DNA from: Pelotomaculum schinkii
Lineage (GTDB): Bacteria; Bacillota; Desulfotomaculia; Desulfotomaculales; Pelotomaculaceae
DNA length: 64,000 bases
Reading direction: 5' to 3'
NCBI RefSeq assembly: GCF_004369205.1
Contig: NZ_QFGA01000001.1
Span: forward strand, 2,046,001 to 2,110,000
The position numbers and the translations under genes are program-made. Shown in pieces: positions 11,055 to 63,637 of the stretch. The notes under the pieces were generated by a model. It was not told the DNA's origin and did no database searches. It worked only from the letters and a program-made list of their open reading frames with translations. How positions within the stretch are numbered: the first letter of the stretch is position 1; each line of letters opens with the position of its first letter.

Positions 11055-12764
11055 TTATTCGGTAGTAAATCTCCAGTCACTGCCATTCAGCCCTGCAAAG
11101 TCCGCGCCGGTGTCTTCATCCTCCAGATAACCGGCTTTGATTGTTACCTCAAACGTGCTGTCTCCCTCCAGGGTGTCCTCCAGGGTAATGGTGAGGGTGT
11201 CCCCGTCAATTTCCACCTTGTCTATATCAACGTACACGCCATCGGTTTTGTTGTAAACCCTGACCGCCCCAAGCAGGCTCTTTCCTGATACGGCACTGAT
11301 ATCCCCGCTAAAGCTGGCCTTCAGAACATCGGTAAGGTCAACATCAGCCGCGCCGTTCCGGGGGGTTAGTTTCTCGATATAAAAGGAATCTACCGTGGTG
11401 AACTGCCATTCGCTGCCGCTTATTCCTACGAAGTTCTCTCCGGAATCCTCCGACTCGATAATCCCCGAACTGATGGCAACGCGGTAGGTTTTACCCTGCT
11501 CCAGCGAATCTTCCAGTGTGATTGTTAAAGTGCTGCCGCTAATCGCAACCGTATCGATGTCAATATATCTACCGTCGGTGATATTGCGCACGGAAATACC
11601 ATCCATGACGTCATCGAGGTCTTCGACCGCACATATGTCCTCATTAAACTCAACAGTCAACTCGTTGGTATCCGGGTCAACGCTATCGCTCCCCTTCCTG
11701 GGGTTAAGCGATTCGATTTCCAGGTCGGAAACGTCATCGTCTCCGGTGGCAAACTGCCAATTGCTGCCGCTTAAACCTGTAAAGTTTTCTCCGGATTCCT
11801 CCGACTCAATAATCCCTGAACTGATGGTGACACGGTAGGTTTGGCCTTGCTCCAGCGAATCTTCCAGTGTGATTGTTAAAGTACTGCCGCTAATTGCAAC
11901 CGTATCGATGTCAACATATTTCCCGTCGGTTATATTGCGCACGGCAATACCATCCATGACGTCATCGAGGTCTTCGACCGCTCTTATATCCTCATTAAAT
12001 TTAGCAGTCAACTGATAGGTGTCCGCGTCGATGCTATAGCTTCCATTCCTGGGGCTGAGCGTCACAAGCTGCAGGTCAAGGCTGTTATCATCATTGTCGC
12101 TGCCGTTGTCCTCGGCCAGCATAATCCGGTACAGCACCATGGCCAGTTCAGCCCTGGTCACCGCCTTGTTTGGTTGAAAGATGTTGCCGGGATAACCAAT
12201 CATGTAACTGTTCGCACACATCCCCCCGACATAAGGCCTGGCGTAAAAGGGGATCTCGTCCGTATCCTCAAACGCTAGCCGGTCATCCACCTCTAGTCCC
12301 ATAGCCCTTGAGGCCCAAACCGCCACCTGGTACCTTTTAGCCGCCTGATTGCCGTTTAGGTCATCAAGCTCGCTCTCTTCTATAATCCCCTCGTCAAGGG
12401 CAAAATCTATACAATCTTGCATCCAGAAAGGGAACCCGTCGTATGAAGACTGGCCTGACGTGGCTGTGGAAACTTCGAAGCCGGCGGCCCTGGAAATCAT
12501 CATGATAGCCTCATTGACGGAAACAGAAGAATTCGGCCGGAAAGTCTGGTCAGGGTAACCCAGGATGATGCCGTAGGAAGCCATCACTTCGATTGGCTGT
12601 TTGGCCCAGTGTGAACCGATATCCGTAACAGTGACAGGTTTGTAGTTTTTCTTTACAAAAAATTTCTTATTGTTTTTGTCCTTCCAGGGCGCCGCCTGGG
12701 AGGCAGTCGCAAAACCAAGTACCATTACAAGCGCAAGCAAAACCATCAAAACTTTTTTAAACAT
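11055..12764 (-). CDS. Secreted S-layer homology protein with three Ig-like (Big_5) repeats
   Basis: A 569-residue exported cell-surface protein. It has a signal peptide (residues 1-24, ending ATASQAAP), three SLH segments (about 45-100, 110-165, 170-225; for example GYPDQTFRPNSSVSVNEA and GYPGNIFQPNKAVTRAE) that typically bind pyruvylated wall polymer, an acidic linker, then three Big_5-like repeats (about 237-340, 345-450, 455-569). Each repeat contains ITLEDSLEQG or a close variant and ends W-x-F-x-T. Repeats 1 and 2 are almost identical even in DNA, pointing to recent duplication. The gene is monocistronic with a G-rich ribosome site. Ligand and function are unknown. Confidence 0.85.
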   Translation of the reverse strand: MFKKVLMVLLALVMVLGFATASQAAPWKDKNNKKFFVKKNYKPVTVTDIGSHWAKQPIEVMASYGIILGYPDQTFRPNSSVSVNEAIMMISRAAGFEVSTATSGQSSYDGFPFWMQDCIDFALDEGIIEESELDDLNGNQAAKRYQVAVWASRAMGLEVDDRLAFEDTDEIPFYARPYVGGMCANSYMIGYPGNIFQPNKAVTRAELAMVLYRIMLAEDNGSDNDDNSLDLQLVTLSPRNGSYSIDADTYQLTAKFNEDIRAVEDLDDVMDGIAVRNITDGKYVDIDTVAISGSTLTITLEDSLEQGQTYRVTISSGIIESEESGENFTGLSGSNWQFATGDDDVSDLEIESLNPRKGSDSVDPDTNELTVEFNEDICAVEDLDDVMDGISVRNITDGRYIDIDTVAISGSTLTITLEDSLEQGKTYRVAISSGIIESEDSGENFVGISGSEWQFTTVDSFYIEKLTPRNGAADVDLTDVLKASFSGDISAVSGKSLLGAVRVYNKTDGVYVDIDKVEIDGDTLTITLEDTLEGDSTFEVTIKAGYLEDEDTGADFAGLNGSDWRFTTE

Positions 12765-13940: not shown

Positions 13941-14072
13941 GCCGCTGTCGCGGCGCCGGCGGCGGATGAAAACTTAGCGCTGTGGATGTGATTTCAATCG
14001 CACACGGCGTGTTAGCGCCGAACTTGTTGGTACTAGTGTTACATTTGTGCGAATGAATTCGACCCACATTTG
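13941..14072. repeat. R2 composite intergenic repeat
   Basis: Contains CCGCTGTCGCGGCGCC, TTTCAATCGCACACGGCG, TTAGCGCCGAACTTGTTG and TTGTGCGAATGAATTCG in that order. The same order of modules occurs at 38732-38892 and 59122-59298. The two copies of the gap's repeats, with the terminator below, account for 13786-14276. Confidence 0.75.
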
Positions 14073-38731: not shown

Positions 38732-38892
38732 ACACGGCGCCAGCAGAAGATGAAAATCATTGATGCAGGTGCGATTTTAATCGCACACGGCGCGCCAGCG
38801 CCGCACTTATATGGCTAGTGTGACATTGTGCGAATGAATTCGCACCTACATTTGAGCTACATTGTAGCGGCCGAAATGTTTTCAGGATAGGT
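38732..38892. repeat. R2 composite intergenic repeat, near-complete copy
   Basis: Contains AACACGGCGCC, the hairpin GTGCGATT-TT-AATCGCAC, CGCGCCAGCGCCGCACTT, and the hairpin GTGCGAAT-GA-ATTCGCAC followed by CTACATTTGAGC and TTTTCAGGATAGG. It fills much of the 454-bp gap 38561-39014; the rest is AT-rich and holds the terminator below. Confidence 0.8.
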
Positions 38893-42620: not shown

Positions 42621-42852
42621 CTCGAAAAAAAGGCTTGACTTGCGGGCATGGGGTTATCCGGAGCGAACGTAGCACCTGGGTGCGGTCCTTAGCGCGTGCG
42701 TAGCTTAAAGTCAAAGCTTAAATAGCGCGTAGCTGCCGGATGGCTGTCTGTAGATGCGGTTGGCATGACGCTCTTTTTGTACAAATGGAGAATTGCGAAG
42801 AGAGCGGAGGATAACCCCATGCCCACTACCCCAAAGTGTTTTTTGAGAACCA
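42621..42852. repeat. R3 element, copy A
   Basis: About 230 bp sharing with copies B and C: AGGCTTGACTTGCGGGCA, GGGGTTATCCGGAGCGA, AGCACCTGG, CCTTAGCGCGTGCG, GCTTAAATAGCGCGTA, CGGATGGCTGTCTG, AGAATTGCGAAG, GCGGAGGATAACCCC and CCCACTACCCC. GGGGTTATCC near the left end is complementary to GGATAACCCC near the right end. It lies in the 403-bp gap between the MoaD and AOR genes. Confidence 0.85.
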
Positions 42853-53715: not shown

Positions 53716-53832
53716 CATGCCGCCTGTGGCCGCGCCACGTATCATGAAAATATCAGCCGATGCAGGTGCGATTGAAAACGGCGCCCGCATGGCCAAGTTT
53801 TTGTCCGCTGCCGGCATGTGACAGCGGCATGG
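53716..53832. repeat. R2 repeat, partial copy
   Basis: Contains CATGCCGCCTGTGGCCGCGCC, CACGTATCATGAAAATATCAG and GATGCAGGTGCGATTGAAAA, matching the left part of the R2 copy at 59122. The right-hand GTGCGAAT hairpin is missing. It occupies part of the 417-bp gap 53532-53948. Confidence 0.6.
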
Positions 53833-59121: not shown

Positions 59122-59298
59122 TACGCCGCTATCGCGGCGCCACGTATCATGAAAATACCAGCCGATGCAGGCGCCATTTCAATCGCACACGGCGCGTCAG
59201 CGCTGAACTTGTTGTAGCTGATGCAACATTTGTGCGAATGAATTCGCACCTACATTCGACCAATGTAGCAGAGGCCGTAATGGATTTTCAGGAAGGTA
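59122..59298. repeat. R2 composite intergenic repeat, fullest copy
   Basis: ACGCCGCTATCGCGGCGCCA, CGTATCATGAAAATACCAGC, GATGCAGGCGCCATTTCAAT, CGCACACGGCGCGTCAGCGC, AACTTGTTGTAGCTGATGC, then GTGCGAAT-GA-ATTCGCAC, CTACATTCGACC and GGATTTTCAGGAAGG. This order defines the R2 family. It lies in the 445-bp gap 59018-59462. Confidence 0.85.
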
Positions 59299-62851: not shown

Positions 62852-62980
62852 GTCGTAAGGCGTAGGGCGTAGGGCGTAAGAATTGGACGTGAGACGTGCG
62901 ACGTGAGACGTGAGTATATACTGCATTCCTTATTGGTCTCATGTGCGAATGAATTCGCACCTACATTTTGGCTGCGTTAA
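62852..62980. repeat. R1 repeat joined to an R2 end upstream of mazG
   Basis: GTCGTAAGGCGTAGGGCGTA, then GACGTGAGACGTGCGACGTG, then ATATACTGCATTCCTTATTG and the R2 hairpin GTGCGAAT-GA-ATTCGCAC with CTACATTTTGGC. It occupies the first part of the 918-bp gap 62811-63728. Confidence 0.75.
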
Positions 62981-63035
62981 ATAGCAATGGGGATAGTTCC
63001 CACTATCTACATCTGTCTAAGTTAAGCAATGAGAA

Positions 63036-63320
63036 GCAATAAGAACCGTCTTGTCCCACCTGGCTCAAAAAGCATGCTCGAAAAGGCTTGACTTGCGGGC
63101 ACGGGGTTATCCGGAGCGAGCGGAGCACCTGGATGCGTTCCTTAGCGCGTGCGTTGCTTGCAGAAAAGCTTAAATAGCGCGTAACCAACGGATGGCTGTC
63201 TGCGACTCGCGGTCGGTATAATTTTGCTTTAATCAAACGTAGAATTGCGAAGCGAGCGGAGGATAACCCCAGGCCCACTACCCCAGAGGCTTTTCGAAAA
63301 CCATTTTACAATGATCTTTA
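63036..63320. repeat. R3 element, copy B
   Basis: The core, 63075-63302, matches copy C closely and copy A more loosely. Shared flanking sequence (AATAAGAACC, CCACCTG, CTCAAAAAGCATGC on the left; AACCA-TTACA-TGATCTTT on the right) extends beyond the core in copies B and C. The complementary ends GGGGTTATCC and GGATAACCCC are at 63103-63112 and about 63261-63270. Confidence 0.88.
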
Positions 63321-63349
63321 TCATTACGTCGGTATAATTTTGCTTTAAT

Positions 63350-63637
63350 CAATAAGAACCTTCCACTGTTCCACCTGTCCTCAAAAAGTATGCTTCGAAA
63401 AGGCTTGACTTGCGGGCACGGGGTTATCCGGAGCGAGCGGAGCACCTGGATGCGTTCCTTAGCGCGTGCGTTGCTTGCAGAAAAGCTTAAATAGCGCGTA
63501 ACTAACGGATGGCTGTCTGTAAGGCGCGGTCGGTATAATTTTGCTTAAATCAAGCGTAGAATTGCGAAGCGAGCGGAGGATAACCCCGTGACCACTACCC
63601 CAAAGGCTTTTCGAGAACCAAATTACATTGATCTTTT
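63350..63637. repeat. R3 element, copy C
   Basis: The core, 63391-63619, is offset by about 317 bp from copy B in the same orientation, forming a direct tandem pair. It contains CTTGACTTGCGGGCACGGGG, GGAGCGAGCGGAGCACCTGG, CCTTAGCGCGTGCGTTGCTT and GCGAAGCGAGCGGAGGATAA, identical or nearly identical to copy B. It lies beside spoVT. Confidence 0.88.

Follow-up and report, generated by a model that had tools for sequence, protein, structure and literature searches.

R3, an intergenic repeat of Pelotomaculum schinkii and its relatives, is probably a MITE-like mobile element with a folded core

The question raised by this locus is what kind of element R3 is, a unit of 229 bp that occurs three times in the window (by which we mean the whole stretch of 64,000 nucleotides analyzed). 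A sequence-only reading of the window had offered a structured RNA or a MITE-like element as alternatives, and our analysis supports both at once: R3 is probably a non-autonomous, MITE-like mobile element whose conserved core, judging from sequence comparison, acts in folded single-stranded form, probably as RNA. We call R3 MITE-like because of the terminal inverted repeats (TIR) and 6-bp target duplications of one relative (G055), its absence at three tested loci from another (G001), its high copy number, and its intergenic placement, and we regard the core as structured because different families retain its fold, which shows compensatory changes and a strand polarity. The three copies proved to lie where they had been placed before, and they are listed here with the parts of the third copy.

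42621..42852, + strand: R3 copy 1, single (blastn match G000:C1:2088628-2088851)
63075..63302, + strand: R3 copy 2, first of the tandem pair (window comparison and blastn)
63303..63390, no strand: spacer of the tandem copies, with an extra 25-nt element match at 63328-63352
63391..63619, + strand: R3 copy 3, second of the tandem pair and blastn query
63395..63404, + strand: outer end TCGAAAAGGC, left TIR side, present too in Pelotomaculum terephthalicicum copies
63414..63429, + strand: P1 5' arm GGGCACGGGGTTATCC of copy 3 (equivalents 63097-63112 and 42644-42659)
63442..63453, + strand: hairpin P2, GCA..TGC, copy 3 (paired in 98.9% of cells, without double change)
63462..63465, + strand: P3 5' arm GCGC inside TAGCGCGTGC, copy 3 (GCCC in 19 of the 32 sequences compared)
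63494..63497, + strand: P3 3' arm GCGC of copy 3 (32-sequence alignment)
63578..63593, + strand: P1 3' arm GGATAACCCCGTGACC of copy 3 (equivalents 63261-63276 and 42809-42824)
63606..63614, + strand: outer end GCTTTTCGA, right TIR side (window sequence)

The tandem pair (63075 and 63391) is 94% identical over 242 nt at a spacing of 317 bp, and the blocks of the remaining copy (42621) are 85-93% identical, which bears out the earlier description of conserved blocks with varying bases between them. The ends that had been reported to pair, GGGGTTATCC and GGATAACCCC, make up the inner portion of a stem of 16 positions. The two bases that separate GGGC from GGGG in this stem co-vary with their partners among copies (AC/GT, AT/AT, TT/AA, AG/CT, and TG/CA); in the 63075 copy, the pairing of these two bases is broken, with AC facing AG. 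By eye, the indels between copies are not multiples of three, in agreement with the earlier view that the frames are not conserved as protein.

A blastn search with the 63391 copy returned 65 R3 matches in the window's own genome (G000; 4.44 Mb in 8 contigs), some of them being pieces of one copy. Thirty-five of the 65 reached E<=5.6e-39, among which 31 covered at least positions 9-221 of the 229, three covered 52-229, and one was truncated. The copy number of R3 in this genome is far above chance, and the earlier count of three copies, right within the window, is too low genome-wide because only one window was visible to its reader. Further copies occur in relatives, with seven of 41 genomes (own included) matching by blastn, and an exact scan of named genomes for the outer end CGAAAAGGCTTGACTYGCSGG gave 16 stretches, from records that carry the label Pelotomaculum or Desulfotomaculaceae bacterium.

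A covariance model (R1), built from the 47-sequence core alignment A1, matched 17 of the 113 genomes of the class, again including the window's own, at E<=0.01, leaving 96 with no match at this threshold under strict filters. These matches, whose per-genome numbers are minima since no more than 23 candidates were scored per genome, fall in families f1 (seven genomes besides the window's own, of which G020 has a fragment and G023 a weak match), f16 (G048, G050, and G052-G055), f11 (G092, and G085 with one hit), and f18 (G111). A second model (R2), made from 32 diverse sequences and applied to 398 genomes from the phylum with six candidates scored in each, matched 10 of them at E<=1e-3, the matches being strong and multicopy in G000, G200, and G234. 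The latter two lie outside the class and have at least five and at least six R2 matches, respectively, one of the six in G234 being a weak fragment; G136, G159, G169, G216, G352, G469, and G492, each with a single weak R2 hit (E 1.7e-4 to 9.9e-4), were not counted as members. Most full-length model hits, from one family to another, are 184-190 nt long. Searches of phages and plasmids gave no R3 match at E<=1e-5, and viral contigs gave no match to two exact core patterns.

Blocks and a fold that are conserved across families would fit a host RNA multiplied by duplication, either a non-coding RNA gene in many copies or a cis-regulatory RNA, and the genomic context of R3 bears on this explanation. 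We compiled a context set of 40 copies (30 from G000 and 10 from five relatives, with tandem copies counted separately), of which 38 are clear of genes predicted by a home-made codon score. Among the 36 copies with both neighbors, 16 lie on the genes' strand, 13 on the opposite strand, seven between convergent genes, and none between divergent genes, all counts that stand without a genome-wide baseline. R3 thus has no strand preference with respect to genes (16 same versus 13 opposite), which speaks against a riboregulator acting in cis, and the target duplications of G055, described below, together with the patchy occurrence in the class (96 of 113 genomes with no match), further make a host RNA improbable. 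The empty divergent gaps suggest avoidance of promoters.

R3 comes in several forms. The long form of the window measures 229 nt, with other copies truncated at one end or the other, and the short form consists of ~90-nt hairpins that lack the core (L054, L065, and L067); a further short form, L047:3137-3224, has an inverted apical loop. In variant long forms of G000 (L047, L048, L049, and L052), ~19 nt (TTATCCGGAGCGAGCGGAG) are swapped for a GCCGTAAGGCGTAAGG-rich repeat, and a sequence like this repeat was seen by eye at window positions 62858-62950. Arrays of two or three tandem copies have periods of 268-272, or of 314 and 317. The flanks are of two types, one of which, in several copies, continues for ~88 nt on the upstream and 74 nt on the downstream side, and the element therefore often lies inside a larger composite repeat. 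Another family of intergenic repeats, marked by a TGTGCGAATGAATTCGCACCTACATT palindrome and a ATTTCAATCGCACACGGCG block, occurs in the window at 13970-14061, 38753-38878, 53724-53780, 59129-59282, and 62941-62993, and several R3 copies appear by eye to be nested in longer versions of it. The window also contains two 300-nt direct repeats, 86% identical, at 11389-12039, within a predicted 569-aa gene.

Within the window's genus, G001 is without the element at all three loci tested (the window locus, L010, and L006), where it has 46, 15, and 22 bp versus about 825, 303, and 270 bp, respectively, in G000. G002, of the same genus, was uninformative at the three loci because of an N gap or contig ends. 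The absence from G001 is consistent with mobility in the genus; it could also reflect loss, with part of the usual flank still being present at L010. At nine other loci, R3 sequence is common to G000 and a relative. G000 and a relative carry the element in opposite orientations at two orthologous places (L032/L048 and L037/L003), as would result from either inversion in place or independent insertion. The flanks of 47 copies (42 from the window's genus and 5 from the next genus) revealed no consistent target duplication; the highest flank-repeat counts, 13 and 8 of the 47, coincide with the element's own ends and are taken for its palindrome rather than for a target duplication. The G001/G000 junctions likewise showed no clean duplication.

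The marks of transposition come from G055, a genome of the order in which 148 sites match the TIR GATTTNNCTGCAAAAAC with at most two mismatches, versus 8 for a reversed-pattern control. We assembled 29 TIR-bounded stretches from loci picked partly for two ends lying close together, a set that retains spurious pairs (one of 1875 bp and probably one of 44 bp), and 19 of these stretches are 246-248 bp long. Exact 6-bp target duplications border 14 of the 29 (shuffled mean 0.6, maximum 5 in 10000), and 7-bp target duplications border two more. The transposon part of our reading is thereby well supported in this one genome. Two core-less derivatives of 59-60 bp in G055 also bear 6-bp duplications, and the core may accordingly be dispensable for insertion, or it may have been lost later. 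As a separate observation, what appears to be one GGGGACAYACCTC hairpin is found at about the same core site in three genera (G053, G054, and G055, at L153, L187, L213, L216, and L217), and the three G055 copies with this hairpin bear 6-7-bp target duplications.

A transposase with matching ends, which the sequence-only reading had proposed as a thing to look for, was found neither in the G055 TIR stretches nor at the Y1_Tnp matches of G000. No autonomous transposon sharing the R3-family ends appeared among the ~100 of the 148 G055 TIR sites that were listed, and 28 of the 29 stretches span 44-310 bp, too short for a transposase. The 1875-bp stretch (L213) was rejected as an autonomous element, as it is a chance pairing of a mateless left end, one gene, and a separate 307-bp element; we take this gene to resemble prolipoprotein diacylglyceryl transferase. 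G000 has six matches to Y1_Tnp, one of them a short fragment, and within ~1.5 kb of these neither R3 ends (by exact short patterns) nor an R2 hit (at E<=10) turned up, a result that lends no support to Y1 transposases as R3 movers.

These results also bear on the view that a RAYT (Y1) transposase mobilizes R3 as a repeat of the REPIN/BIME type, a type with which R3 shares intergenic, palindromic copies in mosaic and, in places, tandem arrangements. Some R3 flanks or inserts even carry GGGGACGG repeats, of the kind that flanks a RAYT-like gene at L140; the flanks of that gene, however, are GGGACGG palindromes and not R3. Moreover, the G055 copies have 6-bp target duplications, whereas none would be expected from Y1 enzymes, which are not known to leave target duplications. 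R3 further differs from REPINs and BIMEs in being much longer and in having a conserved inner domain, and a link to RAYT was not found, so that we consider this explanation very improbable. The L140 gene itself (1339-2264) encodes a RAYT-like Y1 transposase and is flanked by inverted palindromes containing GGGACGGTTCTTTTGC.

The copies have in common a core of ~185 nt, which comprises a closing stem P1, a hairpin P2, an inner stem P3, and near-invariant blocks. In an alignment of 32 sequences chosen for diversity from 103 (A4), 90.1% of the 714 cells of P1, P2, and P3 are paired, a count that omits a helix in the P3 loop and the two outermost column pairs of an earlier alignment. The compensatory changes that had been proposed as a check are present: 12 of the 23 pairs changed on both sides, in 80 such cells, all located in P1 and P3, with P2 having no double change. 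The covariation score on A4 was 0.331 versus 0.133 for shuffled alignments (0 of 500 shuffles as high), and slid controls reached no more than 0.099. One P3 pair is G-C in 13 and C-G in 19 of the 32 sequences, and P3 reads GCGC/GCGC in the clade of the window, in the next genus, and in five G092 copies, and GCCC/GGGC in most others. A tree-based test on 102 sequences, with a null in which Fitch substitutions were redistributed on a FastTree tree in 30 simulations, gave nothing significant (the best was a P1 pair with E=0.1, and the next had E=0.8); the covariation therefore depends on rather few independent events. An extra helix in the P3 loop is plausible outside the window's clade, where 46 of 51 sequences fit the search pattern and five were dropped, and it aligns badly with the window's clade.

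The core also has a strand polarity. With G-U forbidden in the prediction, the window's + strand shows 52 G-U versus 19 A-C cells, and the - strand 14 versus 40; this excess treats related copies as separate cells, and per pair column the + strand stands at 30 to 15. The polarity fits a folded single strand with the + sense of the window better than it fits a symmetric DNA cruciform, and it may also be compatible with single-stranded DNA rather than RNA. Clade-wise consensus energies favored the + strand in five of seven groups, with G111 folding better on the reverse strand (-106.0 versus -99.3) and G048/G050 having equal energies on both strands; in the window-centered alignment, the + strand was favored (-112.9 versus -104.3). 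The folding z-scores of two window copies were -2.56 and -4.89, with the minus strand of the first at -1.67, and that of a G055 copy was -3.60.

Fold and polarity together bear on the ordinary MITE, in which (i) the fold would be that of palindromic DNA, (ii) arms would be corrected against each other in replication, and (iii) the core would be alike by descent and horizontal transfer. R3 resembles bacterial MITEs in being short (<600 bp) and ORF-less, with TIR, many intergenic copies, internal-deletion derivatives, and, in G055, target duplications. The TIR, the target duplications, and the short core-less derivatives would all follow from this explanation; the inverted apical loop of L047:3137-3224 shows that arm recombination is possible, and the non-significant tree-based covariation points the same way. 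However, P3, with its G-C to C-G change, lies inside the core and not in the arms, the length of most full-length model hits stays within 184-190 nt across families, and an excess of G-U over A-C on one strand only is not expected from arm correction. We therefore consider the ordinary MITE rather unlikely. R3 also differs from bacterial MITEs in that different families, and two genomes beyond the class, preserve both the fold and the length of its ~185-nt core, in that a partner transposase was not found, and in that no target duplications were seen in the window's genus.

For the reading that we prefer, a MITE-like element with a folded core, we envisage that a transposase acting in trans would recognize the R3 ends and move the DNA, that the core would be retained because it folds in single-stranded form, in one sense and most likely as RNA, and that the element would need this fold either for protein recruitment or for tolerance of read-through transcription. 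The action of the core as RNA is what we infer from its conservation, compensation, and polarity. More tentatively, R3 might be a mobile structured RNA of a new class, whose ~185-nt core would itself belong to the machinery of mobility; it might, for instance, bind or guide the transposase, the terminal repeats being its counterpart at the DNA level. MITEs are usually regarded as decayed transposons with a meaningless interior; a fold and a length that survive sequence drift, across families and past the class, suggest that the interior of R3 is functional.

HEARO, itself a mobile structured element, is today recognized as IscB's guide RNA, and the R3 family supplies many natural variants per genome. 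An ORF-less HEARO or omega-RNA element, of the IscB or IsrB type, would be similar to R3 in size, in being mobile, structured, and rich in hairpins, and in its many ORF-less copies, and the order of the R3 hosts includes Desulfovirgula, from which a studied IsrB comes. However, the HEARO model (RF02033), which hit an IscB-type locus in G055 with 136 bits as a positive control, hit no R3 copy; R2 gave no match at that locus; and an IscB-type protein (RRXRR) was found in two of the nine R3-bearing genomes tested (one a fragment, and none in G000), the other seven being without it. A HEARO or omega-RNA identity was rejected on these grounds, and with the 6-bp target duplications of G055 as a further difference, we regard it as extremely improbable. 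IsrB is treated in PMC9581776.

The sequence-only reading could match R3 to no RNA family with certainty, and none of the 4227 Rfam models hit an R3 copy at E<=1 or E<=10, the searches returning only hits away from the copies, or none. Among the titles listed from open-licence PubMed Central (including PMC3116915, PMC3733652, and PMC2817692), in searches partly aimed at HEARO/IsrB, there was no description of the R3 family. As far as Rfam and this literature go, R3 is new as a family. Two HEARO RNAs adjoin the IscB-type gene in G055 (L253:1-184 and 1247-1466), and a TwoAYGGAY RNA, with a match of 58 bits that exceeds the gathering score, lies on the minus strand at L235:1229-1385 in G234, directly upstream of an R3-family copy.
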